The notes under the pieces are model-generated. The model was not told the DNA's origin. It saw only the letters and a program-made list of their open reading frames with translations, and ran no database searches. A DNA stretch of 64,000 nt, taken from assembly GCA_030727405.1 (NCBI GenBank), contig JANRBR010000018.1:1-64000 (forward strand). Reading direction: 5' to 3'. Numbering within the stretch: position 1 is the first letter of the stretch; each line of letters begins with the position of its first letter. Positions 9,968 through 61,863 of the stretch are shown one piece after another. Position numbers and translations under genes: made by a program. This stretch comes from Crocinitomicaceae bacterium. Its GTDB lineage: Bacteria > Bacteroidota > Bacteroidia > Flavobacteriales_D > Crocinitomicaceae.

Positions 9968-10165
9968 ATGAGTGAAGATTTTTCAAGTTTTTCAAAACGA
10001 TCAAATTTAGACGAAGAGGACTATTATATTTCTACTGAAGGATACATTGTTTTTACTGAAAAATACCATTTAAAGCGTGGATATTGCTGCAAAAGTGGCT
10101 GTAAACATTGTGCATATGGGTTTGACATCAAGACAGGAACTTTCAAAGAAAACAAAGATCTTTAA
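9968..10165 (+). CDS. DUF5522 small cysteine-rich protein
   Basis: A 65-residue protein with the DUF5522 pattern: DYYISTEGYIVFTEKYHLKR followed by GYCCKSGCKHCAYGF, a CC-x4-C-x2-C cluster that looks metal-binding. Function unknown; from memory, similar short proteins are common in Bacteroidota. The ATG at 9968 follows a purine-rich GAGAGGATA. Its TAA overlaps the stop of the convergent acyltransferase gene within the palindrome TTAA. Confidence 0.85.
   Translation: MSEDFSSFSKRSNLDEEDYYISTEGYIVFTEKYHLKRGYCCKSGCKHCAYGFDIKTGTFKENKDL
10002..10009 (-). promoter_or_regulatory. Candidate -7 element for the deaminase-like gene
   Basis: On the minus strand this is TAAATTTG, an exact TAnnTTTG match. 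It overlaps a possible TTG start at 10004, which argues that translation begins further downstream. The element lies inside the divergent DUF5522 gene. Confidence 0.4.
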
Positions 10166-10704
10166 CGGATCCCTTTTTCAGGATATTTACCTTCATATTG
10201 ACTCAACACGCTTTTGATGTAGTCAATGTCTGCATCAACGTTACCTGTTGGATGAAACAAACTGTGAAATCCACCCGTTTTCGTTTTAAAGTCAATGTAA
10301 CAGATGTAAATCGGGACACCCGCTTTTTGAGCAACGTAATAAAATCCTTTTTTCCAATTAGGATTATAATCCCTTGTTCCTTCTGGTGAGAAAACCATGA
10401 ACATCGATTCATTTTCTTCGAAATACTTCAACGCCGTATCTGTCAGGTTATTTTTTTTCTTGCGGTCAACTGGAATACCACCAATCGCTCTCAGAAACCA
10501 ACCAAGTGGTGGAAAAAATAGTTCTTTTTTCATGAGGTATCTCCCCTTGACACCAAAGAGGACAAATGCCATTCTTCCAAGGACAAAATCCCAATTAGAG
10601 GTATGGGGTCCAACAGCTATGACACACTTTTTGACATCACTTGGAACACTTTTATCAATCTTCCAACCAGTTAACCAAAAAATAAATCGTACGATTATCT
10701 TCAT
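10162..10704 (-). CDS. PlsC-like 1-acyl-glycerol-3-phosphate acyltransferase family protein
   Basis: A 180-residue membrane-associated acyltransferase. The catalytic H-x4-D motif is present (GPHTSNWDF, ~33), then a GIPVDR-type block (~75) and FSPEGTRDYNPNWKKGFYYVA (~107-127), the acceptor-binding EGTR motif. It probably acylates a phospholipid precursor or related acceptor at the inner membrane; it is shorter than classical PlsC. I chose the ATG at 10704 over a TTG two codons upstream. An exact promoter element lies only 3 nt before this ATG. Confidence 0.88.
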   Translation of the reverse strand: MKIIVRFIFWLTGWKIDKSVPSDVKKCVIAVGPHTSNWDFVLGRMAFVLFGVKGRYLMKKELFFPPLGWFLRAIGGIPVDRKKKNNLTDTALKYFEENESMFMVFSPEGTRDYNPNWKKGFYYVAQKAGVPIYICYIDFKTKTGGFHSLFHPTGNVDADIDYIKSVLSQYEGKYPEKGIR

Positions 10705-10707
10705 GTT

Positions 10708-10715
10708 CAAAGATA
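10708..10715 (-). promoter_or_regulatory. Candidate -7 element, near-leaderless (acyltransferase)
   Basis: On the minus strand TATCTTTG is followed by AAC and then the ATG, a spacing of 3 nt. If the consensus position applies, transcription would start at or next to the initiation codon. Confidence 0.5.
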
Positions 10716-29775: not shown

Positions 29776-30519
29776 TTATTTCTGAATTAAATCGCCTGAA
29801 CCATAACGAATTTTATGAATCGCTATAGGAATTCCGTAATACCAAATATCACCAGAACTTGACAGTTCGGCTTTCAATTTTAGTTGATTTGCCCTTAAAT
29901 AGGAAATGCCATTTGACGCGTACATGACGGAGATGGAATCACTAACCAACATTTGACGTGCGTCGAACGTGCCGTACCCATCCATGTCCAAACGCAGAAA
30001 ATCACATGACCCACCGATCGAAATATTGGAGAATCCGTGTGGATTGACCACATTAATGGAATTCGCCACAACCTGCAACTTGAGGTCACCAGCTCCATCA
30101 TTCATCAGGACATCCAAATGATTGGTTTGAATCGTATCCGTATTTGTTAAAAGTTCGGATCCCCAATAAATGAGTTTGGAAAGTTGTGTAAAATGTATTT
30201 TCACCAAGACATCGCCTGTTTTATAGCGCAGAAAAGGACATTTATTTCGGTTCCAAATTTCCAATTTCCCATCGACAACCGTCCAATCAATAAAATTTAC
30301 AAGATTCTTTCCAGCAACAATTTCCAGGTAGGAACTCGTATCTTGGACCAATTCAATTTTCAGTCGTTGGTGGATTTCCATTTGTTGAAAATCTGGAACG
30401 GCAATAATTTTACTGATCTCTTCGCCTGTCCCTTTCGAACAGGACCTATTCTCCGGTTTCTTGCACGAAGTAAAAACGATTAAAAGAAAAAGGAACGAAG
30501 TAATTTTTTGGAAGGTCAT
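29776..30519 (-). CDS. GIN-domain (DUF2807) lipoprotein
   Basis: A 247-residue envelope protein. The lipobox at VFTSC (~20) anchors the mature protein. The rest is a right-handed beta-helical GIN domain: FQQMEIHQRLKIELVQDTSSYLEIVAGKNLVNFI, then WGSELLTNTDT, LDVLMNDGAGDLKLQV, SNGISYLRA and a final GSGDLIQK. GIN domains are thought to form adhesin-like head structures; function unproven. Its start overlaps the stop of the PagL-like gene as ATGA. Confidence 0.85.
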   Translation of the reverse strand: MTFQKITSFLFLLIVFTSCKKPENRSCSKGTGEEISKIIAVPDFQQMEIHQRLKIELVQDTSSYLEIVAGKNLVNFIDWTVVDGKLEIWNRNKCPFLRYKTGDVLVKIHFTQLSKLIYWGSELLTNTDTIQTNHLDVLMNDGAGDLKLQVVANSINVVNPHGFSNISIGGSCDFLRLDMDGYGTFDARQMLVSDSISVMYASNGISYLRANQLKLKAELSSSGDIWYYGIPIAIHKIRYGSGDLIQK

Positions 30520-31619
30520 TTTTCACGGTTTTTAACATGATAGGAAAGACCAAACTCCAAGTAATCCGCTTTCGCATAATGTGTTTTAAGTCCAAAAAAT
30601 GCACTCATGCGGTGACTTAAGTAATACCGACAACCTAAACGAATGTAAAGCGGTCCTTCCGCTCGGTAACGATCACGCACATACACACCTACTCCGTAGA
30701 CGAAATTAAAGCGATCAAGAGGAAGAAGGTAGGAAGCGGAAATGCCCACTTGAAGGATATCCAATTGGGATTTTTCAACCATCGGTTCATAATTGAACAA
30801 GGCTTGTTTCGAAATGACGTCTAGGTTTACTTCAATACCAGATTTCGCATTAAAATAATTTCGAAGGGATAAGGATCCTGCATAAACCGGGTATTTTTTG
30901 CCACCGATCGGCATCGTTTCCTTGAAGGTTAACATTCCATTCACACTCCATTGCCACTGTTGATAAGTCAAAAAGTTAGATCCGATCAAGGTTCGGTTGT
31001 GCTTTGTTCTGTCTTGAACATGCATTTTATCTTGTAAGTAATGCTTATATCCAACCGAAACATAGGGTAAATTAATTCCTAAATTCGGGACCTTCAATGC
31101 ACCGTTACTAAAATGGGTCATGTCGATTGACAAGGAAAACGCTTCGTTTTTTACTTGGTACGTTTGCTTCAATGCAAAACACATCATGGCATTGAAATGG
31201 GAACCGATCGCCACATTTTTCGGATTGGAAATTGGATCATAAGGACGATTGGTATAGCCGAATCCGGTGCCAAACTTAAAATCCATGCGATACCTCTTTT
31301 TGCTTACAATGAGCATCTCCGCAAAACCATAAAGTCCAGCAAAACGACCTAGGACCTCATTATTACCAACAGAACCAATAAATAAGGTTGCACCAACTTC
31401 AGGTTTTCGGTAGGACAACTGCCAGATTTTTGAGCCATTTAATTGCTTGAAATAAGAGAGTTCGGTTGCCACAGCCACGTTTTGAGCCAAATGCGCCATT
31501 CCTGCATGATGCGCAGCAAGAAATCCAACCTTTTCCCGCACTTCGAACCCGCTCGACTGAGCCGTTAAAATTGGAGTGATCATTAGACAAATGCAAAAAA
31601 AGAGGCCGCTTTTTTTCAT
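30516..31619 (-). CDS. PagL-like acyloxyacyl hydrolase / lipid A deacylase family protein
   Basis: A 367-residue outer-membrane protein with a signal peptide (ICLMITPILTAQ). The beta-barrel core has the family's catalytic neighbourhood DMTHFSNGALKVPNLGINL (~167-185), where His and Ser of H-x-S match the PagL active site. PagL enzymes remove the 3-O acyl chain of lipid A; the Bacteroidota relatives are larger and their activity is untested. It begins a three-gene operon with the GIN-domain lipoprotein and the interrupted porin. An exact promoter element lies 4 nt before the ATG. Confidence 0.85.
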   Translation of the reverse strand: MKKSGLFFCICLMITPILTAQSSGFEVREKVGFLAAHHAGMAHLAQNVAVATELSYFKQLNGSKIWQLSYRKPEVGATLFIGSVGNNEVLGRFAGLYGFAEMLIVSKKRYRMDFKFGTGFGYTNRPYDPISNPKNVAIGSHFNAMMCFALKQTYQVKNEAFSLSIDMTHFSNGALKVPNLGINLPYVSVGYKHYLQDKMHVQDRTKHNRTLIGSNFLTYQQWQWSVNGMLTFKETMPIGGKKYPVYAGSLSLRNYFNAKSGIEVNLDVISKQALFNYEPMVEKSQLDILQVGISASYLLPLDRFNFVYGVGVYVRDRYRAEGPLYIRLGCRYYLSHRMSAFFGLKTHYAKADYLEFGLSYHVKNREK

Positions 31620-31623
31620 TATC

Positions 31624-31631
31624 CAAAATTA
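31624..31631 (-). promoter_or_regulatory. Candidate -7 element, leaderless geometry (PagL-like operon)
   Basis: TAATTTTG on the minus strand, then GATA, then ATG: a 4-nt spacing that puts transcription at the start codon. Only 27 nt separate it from the divergent mazG element. Confidence 0.5.
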
Positions 31632-31658
31632 ATGAATTCTATGATGTCAGAATAACTT

Positions 31659-31666
31659 TAACTTTG
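31659..31666 (+). promoter_or_regulatory. Candidate -7 element, leaderless geometry (mazG)
   Basis: TAACTTTG, then TTAT, then ATG at 31671. This is the same 4-nt spacing as at the PagL-like, LuxE-like and SUI1 genes. Confidence 0.5.
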
Positions 31667-31670
31667 TTAT

Positions 31671-32444
31671 ATGGATTCAAGACTTGTTGCGTTTGAGCGC
31701 TTATTAAATATCATGGATGACTTAAGGGAAAAATGTCCTTGGGATCAGAAGCAAACATTCGAAACATTGCGAAATTTAACGATTGAAGAAACCTATGAAC
31801 TGACGGATGCAATCACCAAAAACGACATGCAAGAAATCAAAGGTGAGATTGGAGACTTGTTCTTGCACCTCGTTTTCTATTGTAAATTGGGCGATGAACA
31901 AGGTCAATTTGATGTCACCAGTGTTTTGAATGCTATTTGTGAAAAGTTGATTTACCGTCATCCGCACATTTATGGAGACGTCACCGTTTCTGGAGAAGAG
32001 GAAGTAAAGGCAAATTGGGAAAAATTAAAATTAAAAGAAGGAAAAAAATCGGTACTGGAAGGCGTTCCTTCTTCCCTACCAGCACTCGTTAAAGCAACCC
32101 GCATTCAAGAAAAAGCAAAAGGAATAGGATTCGAATGGGAACACCGTCAAGATGTTTGGAAAAAAGTGGAGGAGGAAATGCAGGAACTTCAAGTCGAGGT
32201 GGAAGCAAACTCAGATCATGTGGAAGAGGAATTTGGTGATGTGTTGTTTTCACTTGTGAATTACGCACGTTACATCGGGATTTCACTGGAAAATGCTTTA
32301 GCACAGACAAATCAGAAATTCATCAAACGCTTTCAATTGATGGAGGATTTAATCAAAGAAAAGGAAATAGACATCCGAAACATGACCTTGAATGAATTGG
32401 ATGTTTTTTGGGATCAAGCGAAACAAAAATTAAAAACACCATGA
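31671..32444 (+). CDS. mazG: Nucleoside triphosphate pyrophosphohydrolase MazG
   Basis: A 257-residue protein with two MazG domains. The first has CPWDQKQTFETL and EETYEL with the metal-binding acidic residues and EIGDLFLHLVFYCKL; the second has EEEMQELQVE and EEFGDVLFSLVNYARY. MazG hydrolyses NTPs and dNTPs to monophosphates and may remove damaged nucleotides or lower ppGpp. The downstream MscS-like gene begins with an ATG overlapping its TGA. Confidence 0.95.
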   Translation: MDSRLVAFERLLNIMDDLREKCPWDQKQTFETLRNLTIEETYELTDAITKNDMQEIKGEIGDLFLHLVFYCKLGDEQGQFDVTSVLNAICEKLIYRHPHIYGDVTVSGEEEVKANWEKLKLKEGKKSVLEGVPSSLPALVKATRIQEKAKGIGFEWEHRQDVWKKVEEEMQELQVEVEANSDHVEEEFGDVLFSLVNYARYIGISLENALAQTNQKFIKRFQLMEDLIKEKEIDIRNMTLNELDVFWDQAKQKLKTP

Positions 32445-39832: not shown

Positions 39833-40804
39833 TTACGCTTCAACCAATAGGTTACATCCTCTAATATCTGCATCATCGAAGCGTCCCTCCAAATAGAACC
39901 CGTCCTCAACCGTTCGACCTAAGTCTTGTGTTTGAATGAAAGCACAACTATGCTTATTGGCTAAATCAATTACGTTGATTCCACCTGTGCGTTCATTTGA
40001 AAAATATTGAAAAGGATCGTATGGATCACGAATTAAAATCTTCATCCATGGAACAACTTGAAATTTCCCATCTTTCATTGAATACCCTTGCGAAAGCAAC
40101 TCTGTCATTCCATATTCCGAGCGTATTTCAGAAACACCTAAACCCTTCTTTAATTCCCGATGCAATTCGGTTTTTGTCAATTCTTTCCGTCGGCCCTTCA
40201 TTCCTCCTGTTTCAACGATGATGGCTTGTGATAAATCAACCTGAGCCTCCGCTAAATCGAGAAGCGCGTATGAAACCCCAAAAATGATGACCTTTTTCTT
40301 TTCTTTCAAGGCTTCTTGGTAACGTTCAATGAGGGAAGCGGGATCATTCAATACAAATCCAGAGCTCACTTGCTCCGATTGTTGGATGAATGCATTCACC
40401 ATATAAACCAGTGAAGAATCACCTTGTTCGACGTAATTTGGCAAGAGCGCCAGCACAACATAATCTTTCACTGAACCAAAAAAATGGGTAAAGCCCCGGG
40501 AAAAAGAATTCTCGTACCATTCTTTTTCGAAAATAAGGTGTTGACTTCTTCCCGAAAGACCCGTTCCACTGCTTTGAAAATGTAAATCGACCTTGTGTGC
40601 GTTTTGATCGATGACACGCGTCGTTTTAAAAAAAGAAATGGGTAAAAATGGAATATCCTCTATTGATTTAGGATTGTTTCGCCGCACCAAATCAGCATAA
40701 GATCGATAAACCGATACGTTTTCATATTGATATTGAAACAAAGCCAAGGCTCGTTCTTCAAAATTATCCGCGTTGGTGGTGACTAAAAATTCCTTGGGAT
40801 TCAT
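39833..40804 (-). CDS. LuxE-like acyl-protein synthetase family protein
   Basis: A 323-residue protein of the LuxE family, the acyl-activating subunit of fatty-acid reductase in luminous bacteria. Visible blocks are IPFLPISFFKTTRV (~53), SSGTGLSGRSQHL (~80, nucleotide loop-like), VETGGMKGRR (~197) and SEYGMTELLSQGYS (~233), the adenylate-forming enzyme pattern. No luciferase genes are near; in Bacteroidota such proteins probably activate an acyl or amino-acyl substrate for another pathway. An exact promoter element lies 4 nt before the ATG. Confidence 0.87.
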   Translation of the reverse strand: MNPKEFLVTTNADNFEERALALFQYQYENVSVYRSYADLVRRNNPKSIEDIPFLPISFFKTTRVIDQNAHKVDLHFQSSGTGLSGRSQHLIFEKEWYENSFSRGFTHFFGSVKDYVVLALLPNYVEQGDSSLVYMVNAFIQQSEQVSSGFVLNDPASLIERYQEALKEKKKVIIFGVSYALLDLAEAQVDLSQAIIVETGGMKGRRKELTKTELHRELKKGLGVSEIRSEYGMTELLSQGYSMKDGKFQVVPWMKILIRDPYDPFQYFSNERTGGINVIDLANKHSCAFIQTQDLGRTVEDGFYLEGRFDDADIRGCNLLVEA

Positions 40805-40808
40805 CCAA

Positions 40809-40816
40809 CAAAGTTA
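40809..40816 (-). promoter_or_regulatory. Candidate -7 element, leaderless geometry (LuxE-like)
   Basis: TAACTTTG on the minus strand, then TTGG, then ATG at 40804; a 4-nt spacing. Confidence 0.5.
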
Positions 40817-61506: not shown

Positions 61507-61851
61507 CTATCCTTTTTTCTTTGTTTGCGTGTAGCCTTCTTTGATCAATAAATCAAAGATTTTATCCTTAAAGTTTCCTTGGATTAACACCTCTCGATCC
61601 TTCACGGTACCACCTACCCCACATTTGCTTTTCAACAGCTTACCGAGTTCTTTTAAATCGTCCTCCGTGCCAGTAAATCCTTCAATTAAGGTCACTTCTT
61701 TCCCCGCACGCTGCTTGCGGTCGATGGAAACGTAAAGTCGCTGTTGATTATTCACTAAGGTATCTTGTTCTTCCTCCTCTTCATGCTGAAATTGAAAATT
61801 CGGATTGGTCGAATAAACGACATTTACACGGTTCTTATCTTTCTTAGACAT
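61507..61851 (-). CDS. eIF1/SUI1-like translation factor (YciH family)
   Basis: A 114-residue protein with an acidic, disordered N-terminus and a SUI1 domain: VSIDRKQRAGKEVTLIEGFTG (~42-62), LKELGKLLKSKCGVGGTVKDREVLIQG (~68-93) and FKDKIFDLLIKEGYTQ. SUI1 is the fold of eukaryotic eIF1; bacterial YciH homologues bind the 30S subunit and affect initiation fidelity. It ends 1 nt from the convergent CDF gene. Its own promoter element lies 4 nt before its ATG. Confidence 0.93.
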   Translation of the reverse strand: MSKKDKNRVNVVYSTNPNFQFQHEEEEEQDTLVNNQQRLYVSIDRKQRAGKEVTLIEGFTGTEDDLKELGKLLKSKCGVGGTVKDREVLIQGNFKDKIFDLLIKEGYTQTKKKG

Positions 61852-61855
61852 ACCA

Positions 61856-61863
61856 CAAATTTA
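61856..61863 (-). promoter_or_regulatory. Candidate -7 element, leaderless geometry (eIF1-like gene)
   Basis: TAAATTTG on the minus strand, then TGGT, then ATG at 61851. A TTG lies 16 nt upstream (CAA at 61880-61882). Confidence 0.5.

Follow-up and report, generated by a model that had tools for sequence, protein, structure and literature searches.

Five genes in a 64-kb window (the whole 64,000-nt stretch of DNA analysed, from a freshwater Bacteroidota bacterium) carry an exact TAnnTTTG -7 element 3 or 4 nt from the ATG. Judging from the sequence, we think it probable (about 0.87) that ordinary -7 elements give leaderless mRNAs at the PagL-like, mazG, LuxE-like and SUI1 genes and, to within a nucleotide, at the acyltransferase gene, that these genes belong to a distinct class with 4 nt between element and ATG (N4), and that the two divergent genes on either side of a single short gap are started alternately. 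Ordinary primary-sigma -7 elements would be positioned to make the A of the ATG the first transcribed base, and the leaderless mRNAs would be translated from their 5′-terminal start codon.

The divergent start codons of the PagL-like gene and mazG leave a gap of 51 bp between them (Table 1). Both gap promoters have an exact TAnnTTTG (TAHHTTTG) -7 element, the type used by the Bacteroidota primary sigma factor (sigma-ABfr), whose promoters are described as TTTG / TAnnTTTG. The predicted transcription starts at 31619 and 31671 are separated by 52 bp, and the two -7 elements lie 27 bp from each other. Gene bodies flank the gap, so there is no intergenic space for a promoter farther upstream. The exact -7 element is what both gap promoters share with sigma-ABfr promoters; neither has a TTG 15-25 nt 5′ of the element. 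We did not use a -33 TTG/TTTG as a defining feature of Bacteroidota primary sigma promoters because this motif has been reported to be much less evident in F. johnsoniae (PMC6847099). In the ORF list, the PagL-like gene also overlaps the next minus-strand ORF by 4 nt.

The footprint of RNA polymerase extends from ~50 bp upstream to 20 bp downstream. Since the usual footprint on one gap promoter spans the second, a polymerase on one would cover the other, and alternate use of the PagL-like gene and mazG is likely. One polymerase would probably shut out the other at these overlapping promoters, and the two genes would then be started in alternation.

Table 1. Coordinates of the predicted leaderless genes, their -7 elements and the divergent gap in the window.
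Feature	Position	Strand	Remarks
Start codon of PagL-like gene	31619-31617	-	ATG
Start codon of mazG	31671-31673	+	ATG
-7 element TAATTTTG of PagL-like gene	31624..31631	-	then GATA, then ATG (4 nt)
-7 element TAACTTTG of mazG	31659..31666	+	then TTAT, then ATG (4 nt)
PagL-like gene, 367 aa, predicted leaderless	30516..31619	-	Pfam PagL PF09411, E 8.9e-10
mazG, 257 aa, predicted leaderless	31671..32444	+	Pfam MazG, E 7.7e-36
Divergent gap, two promoters back-to-back	31620..31670	.	from sequence
-7 element TAACTTTG of LuxE-like gene	40809..40816	-	then TTGG, then ATG at 40804 (4 nt)
LuxE-like gene, 323 aa, predicted leaderless	39833..40804	-	Pfam LuxE, E 2.6e-9
-7 element TAAATTTG of SUI1 (eIF1-like) gene	61856..61863	-	then TGGT, then ATG at 61851 (4 nt)
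SUI1/eIF1-like gene, 114 aa, predicted leaderless	61507..61851	-	Pfam SUI1, E 1e-19
-7 element TATCTTTG of acyltransferase gene	10708..10715	-	then AAC, then ATG at 10704 (3 nt)
Acyltransferase gene, 180 aa from ATG, predicted leaderless or nearly so	10162..10704	-	Pfam Acyltransferase, E 6.3e-16

An earlier note on this DNA had described two exact -7 elements in the gap with 4 nt to each ATG, a 4-nt spacing at 40804 and 61851, and a 3-nt spacing at 10704. We confirmed all of these from the sequence. Its further statement, that other genes with an exact element have 7 nt or at least 17 nt, held with one exception: the spacings found were 3, 4, 7, 16 and 17-40 nt, and the 16-nt spacing belongs to a second element of the 39806 gene, which also has an element at 7 nt. 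The bare element TANNTTTG was not enriched in the window (69 occurrences vs 68.6 expected), and such counts were dropped as uninformative. When the spacing and the start codon were included, TANNTTTG-N4-ATG occurred 7 times vs 1.44 expected, and none of 100 shuffles reached 7. Four of the seven matches are gene starts; the remaining three (24080+, 29503+, 39254+) lie antisense within minus-strand ORFs and look like chance matches.

We then measured the distance (d) from TAHHTTTG to ATG in a 464-kb sample consisting of the window and 400 kb of the same genome (2.23 Mb, 42 contigs). Genes in this sample (439 ORFs) were called as greedy ORFs (90 aa or more), candidate ATGs were taken from the first 35% of the ORF, and mazG itself was excluded from the full 464-kb histogram. 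The distribution of the 120 element-ATG pairs at d 0-40 was bimodal. A spike of 21 pairs at d=4 (P = 1.9e-12, binomial vs uniform) was flanked by 2 pairs at d=3 and 3 at d=5; there followed a trough at d 6-13 (14 pairs over 8 spacings), a broad mode of leadered genes at d 14-24 (56 pairs over 11 spacings) and 22 pairs at d 25-40. Restricting the count to the first ATG (422 genes) left d=4 at 21, vs 2 at either adjacent spacing. After base-by-base shuffling of the upstream stretches (300 rounds), d=4 averaged 0.45 and never exceeded 3.

Over the whole genome, TAHHTTTG-N4-ATG was found 111 times vs 22 times for the reversed pattern. N3 and N5 together gave 83 sites (41.5 per spacing) vs 40 in the reversed control (20 per spacing); the sum over N3-N5 was 194, with 62 in the reversed control. 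Per spacing, N7-12 had 38.2 sites and N14-24 had 48.6. Adjacent spacings served as the main control because the reversed pattern proved an imperfect control in some genomes (e.g. G126, 82 vs 124). The N4 surplus is ~70-90 sites (111 less an expectation of 22-42 set by the reversed control and the adjacent spacings), which presumably corresponds to an equal number of genes. The earlier note had proposed a genome-wide scan over N3-N5. Its expectation was borne out at N4, where the peak was sharp, and failed at N3 and N5, which did not rise above adjacent spacings. The class in this genome is N4, and N3-5 is too wide. For the acyltransferase gene, orthologs support the 3-nt spacing despite the lack of a genome-wide N3 rise.

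The spike depends on the whole element. A TTTG placed 4 nt 5′ of an ATG had TA in place in 22/29 cases, vs 22/213 at 25-40 nt (P = 1.7e-13, Fisher); at 6-12 nt, TA was in place in 14/97. Because TA is needed together with TTTG, we favour a promoter over a ribosome signal, and TTTG-N4-ATG as a translational signal without promoter meaning is ruled out by this test. Spacer composition was compared in stretches of the source genome and of same-genus genomes (29 N4 genes, 76 leadered genes). The N4 spacer was A-poor (18/116) compared to the last 4 nt of leaders (103/304; P = 1.7e-4) and to the first 4 nt 3′ of the -7 element in leadered genes (127/304; P = 1.8e-7), and the A-rich, leader-like sequence before the start codon was absent from N4 spacers. 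In the same stretches, an A at -3, which promotes initiation in F. johnsoniae (PMC6847099), was present in 6/29 N4 spacers. A pyrimidine at -1 was also considered as an indication that transcription starts at the A and was dropped, being common in leadered genes too and thus non-discriminating.

The neighbourhood of N4 genes differed from that of other genes. A divergent upstream neighbour was found for 12/21 N4 genes vs 116/414 of all genes (P = 0.005 vs the rest), and overlap with a same-strand upstream ORF for 0/21 vs 97/414.

The position of the transcription start was inferred from published data on two Flavobacterium species. The -7 element occupies positions -12 to -5 in both F. johnsoniae (PMC6847099) and F. 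psychrophilum (PMC9723704), and 241 of 434 F. johnsoniae candidates lay 4-5 nt from the start (PMC6847099). An element followed by 4 nt would therefore put +1 on the A of the ATG.

We assessed whether the geometry is kept among orthologs. For the LuxE-like gene (window and 22 same-genus relatives, 47-77% protein identity), the element lay exactly 4 nt from the start in 19/23 sequences and at 5 nt in 2; the remaining 2 had no exact element, though a one-base variant stands at 4 nt in one of them. The DNA around the element has diverged: pairwise identity was 34% over the 38 nt upstream and 29% in the spacer (15/19 rows kept after removal of near-identical upstream regions), and the 100% identity of the element itself is by construction, these rows having been picked for an element at 4 nt. 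The 19 starts at 4 nt comprise 9 ATG and 10 GTG codons. GTG stood exactly 4 nt 3′ of the element at L194, L197-L201, L205-L207 and L212. To our knowledge, leaderless GUG starts are undescribed in Bacteroidota. We also considered N4-GTG as a second genome-wide class of the source genome, which was unsupported (21 vs 15 for the reversed pattern). As N4-GTG is not clearly enriched there, the GTG starts of the LuxE relatives are a special case.

For mazG, 80 relatives up to 98% identical were collected, mostly from records labelled as Flavobacteriales or Crocinitomicaceae metagenome genomes; a few are labelled Polynucleobacter, Chryseobacterium or Chitinophaga, labels that mazG identity does not bear out. 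With the window, these 81 sequences yielded 60 divergent pagL/mazG pairs in which both starts could be called (8 lacked a pagL match, 12 a callable pagL ATG and 1 a callable mazG ATG). The gap was 43-69 bp in 57/60 pairs. The element was at most 7 nt from the ATG for pagL in 50/60 pairs, for mazG in 33/60 and for both genes in 30/60. In the 12 nearest relatives (L001-L012), both genes had the element at 4 nt (12/12). Beyond these, mazG had an exact element at 3-17 nt or none within 60 nt, and its N4 geometry is not family-wide. Short 6-7 nt spacings were also flagged at L015, L021-L023, L025-L027 and L029.

Retention of the geometry was also weaker for SUI1 and the acyltransferase gene, as for mazG. 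Among 23 callable SUI1 orthologs (window included), the element lay at 4 nt in 11, at 3 nt in 1 and at 28-43 nt in 3, and 8 had no exact element within 60 nt. Among 21 acyltransferase orthologs (window included), it lay at 3 nt in 6 and at 4 nt in 3. The other 12 had no exact element within 55 nt (10 with ATG, 2 with TTG), and 6 of these have a one-base variant at the 4-nt spacing. When the four N4 genes of the window were compared with two relatives, the element stood at 4 nt in 7/8 comparisons and at 3 nt in 1/8. Leadered genes with the same start showed shifts of up to 6 nt, some none, in these relatives. Three window genes with elements at 20-34 nt had none in the relatives where the genes were found.

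Two other window genes, 35857 and 39806, have a 7-nt spacing that is kept at 7 in two relatives. Together with pagL of distant relatives, they point to 6-7 nt as a second conserved short spacing, with predicted leaders of 2-3 nt.

The spike extends through the family of the source bacterium. N4 exceeded the reversed control in 80/80 genomes of the family (the source genome included), with ratios of 4.3-8.9 in six genomes of its genus and a median of 2.5 in the other 74. Compared to the mean of N7-12, N4 was 2.8-3.7 times as frequent in the genus; medians were 1.3 in f6 and ~1 or less in f11, f17, f18, f24, f33 and f35, among 79 phylum genomes that were hand-picked to span families after the N4 counts were known, so that these medians describe a non-random sample. 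The share of N4 among exact elements up to 40 nt from an ATG was 21/120 in the source genome vs 3/43 in stretches of four f6 genomes. No spike was seen in f18, f24, f33 and f35 (4, 3, 3 and 2 genomes compared); 70 kb of f18 stretches had zero element matches, too little to use alone. In f25, a GC-rich family of another class, N4 was 2.5-11 times the adjacent spacings (4 genomes). We examined 30 of 90 N4 sites in three f25 genomes (G144, G136 and G101; loci L137-L166, 53-60% GC), and 28 of them open ORFs of at least 80 aa, although several of these ATGs lie within a longer open frame and a composition of 53-60% GC favours long ORFs. The f25 genes with an exact element may be mainly leaderless.

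The data were weighed against three other explanations. Many of these genes could have very short leaders, with transcription starting 1-3 nt before the ATG, chiefly where the element is 5-7 nt away; such mRNAs would be nearly leaderless, and their initiation may be of the ordinary 30S kind. The pagL orthologs fit this, as the element was 5, 6 or 7 nt away in 29 of 61 callable sequences and 3-4 nt away in 21, and so do the two window genes that hold 7 nt in both relatives. A sample of more distant relatives was likewise raised at d=5, 6 and 7 (21, 16 and 12, vs 31 at d=4). The nearest relatives, L001-L012, repeat the same genes (12 at d=1, 18 at d=4, 15 at d=7), and we did not count them as independent evidence. 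In the source genome, however, the spike is at exactly 4 and spacings of 5-7 are near background, and the LuxE-like orthologs keep to 4 nt; we regard very short leaders as unlikely. It is doubtful, too, that the class is a by-product of genome compaction, in which short intergenic regions press promoters onto start codons and leaderlessness has no role. The genome is small, and the pagL/mazG gap stays narrow in nearly all pairs. Compaction alone, however, predicts a continuum of short leaders, and what we observed was the trough at 6-13 nt. Larger genomes of the same family have the spike as well (G403, 4.6 Mb, 144 sites; G469, 4.7 Mb, 164 sites).

That AT-rich upstream regions yield TTTG-N4-ATG by chance, with an element that is not a promoter, is very improbable. 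TANNTTTG does occur at chance level in the window, and three of the seven N4 matches there are antisense within ORFs. Yet adjacent spacings, the reversed pattern and shuffled sequence all stay well below N4, the TA part is needed, and orthologs retain the geometry. Chance explains only ~22-42 of the 111 sites, and as a full account it is refuted by the spacing controls, the shuffles, the TA test and the ortholog geometry. The reading of these genes as a distinct class of predicted leaderless genes, as the earlier note had suggested, is supported by the N4 spike, the trough, the TA test, the A-poor spacer and the diverged orthologs.

Leaderless mRNAs have already been reported in Bacteroidota (PMC9723704, PMC7366714), and the kind is known. 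Of 890 mapped cases in F. psychrophilum, 5.5% were leaderless (PMC9723704), ~3.7% of 5′ UTRs were shorter than 10 nt in B. thetaiotaomicron (PMC7366714), and leaders were longer than 10 nt in 87% in F. johnsoniae (PMC6847099). The authors of these studies concluded that leaderless mRNAs are few. A genome survey found a Pribnow-like leaderless class in 1 of 37 Bacteroidetes/Chlorobi genomes, and its authors deemed high percentages of missed leaderless genes unlikely (PMC3160421). The leaderless mRNAs of the three species have the same -7 element and come from the same phylum as the genes described here. They are known from transcript data, whereas the present class is known from sequence alone; set against those transcript studies, this analysis shows the geometry kept across orthologs. 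The leaderless genes of Actinobacteria and Deinococcus-Thermus are likewise a class defined by a promoter signal set at a constant, short spacing before the start codon (PMC3160421), with a Pribnow box in place of the TAnnTTTG found here.

Our literature searches found no work on leaderless mRNAs for Crocinitomi and, judged by title, none on the subject for leaderless mRNAs with Bacteroidota promoters or with Porphyromonas/Prevotella. The passages, titles and abstract openings consulted held no description of a sharp spike, of conservation with exchange of ATG and GTG, or of differences between families. This analysis adds the sharp spike and shows that it is conserved and differs between the sampled families.

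Bacteroidota do without Shine-Dalgarno sequences. Tentatively, and at slightly less than even odds, we suggest that in parts of this phylum leaderless initiation is a gene-specific, selected state and not noise: the distance would be held at 4 nt despite diverged upstream DNA, with AUG or GUG free to serve as the start, and the use of this state would range by family from none (f18, f24, f33, f35) to the main element position (f25). The pagL/mazG gap would then be a compact two-way leaderless promoter from which one gene can be started at a time. A sharp, conserved class can be read from sequence in the Crocinitomicaceae lineage, in contrast to the few leaderless mRNAs concluded elsewhere in the phylum. 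The luxE-like, pagL, mazG and SUI1 genes, along with families with and without the spike, provide material for work on leaderless ribosome initiation in Bacteroidota. Start-codon calling is helped as well, as the promoter position points to the GTG starts of the LuxE-like relatives.

To see which genes carry N4, we scanned 17 N4 genes of the source genome, from the sample outside the window, against Pfam. Matches were obtained for 14/17: MutS family, chorismate-binding enzyme, DHH phosphoesterase, proline dehydrogenase, DEAD-box helicase, ribulose-phosphate epimerase, DXP synthase, UbiA, ABC transporter, RbfA, DegT aminotransferase, PAP2 phosphatase, type III pantothenate kinase and peptide deformylase. 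No ribosomal-protein gene was among these 14. Two of the 17 (L084, L091) have a possible start codon earlier than the N4 ATG. Within the window, the SUI1/eIF1-like gene (61507-61851) is a translation factor gene that is itself predicted to be leaderless. The listing of N4 sites also contains further back-to-back N4 pairs of candidate gene starts, at G000:C6:60344-60451 and G000:C23:102185-102286, with 102 and 96 bp between the ATGs.
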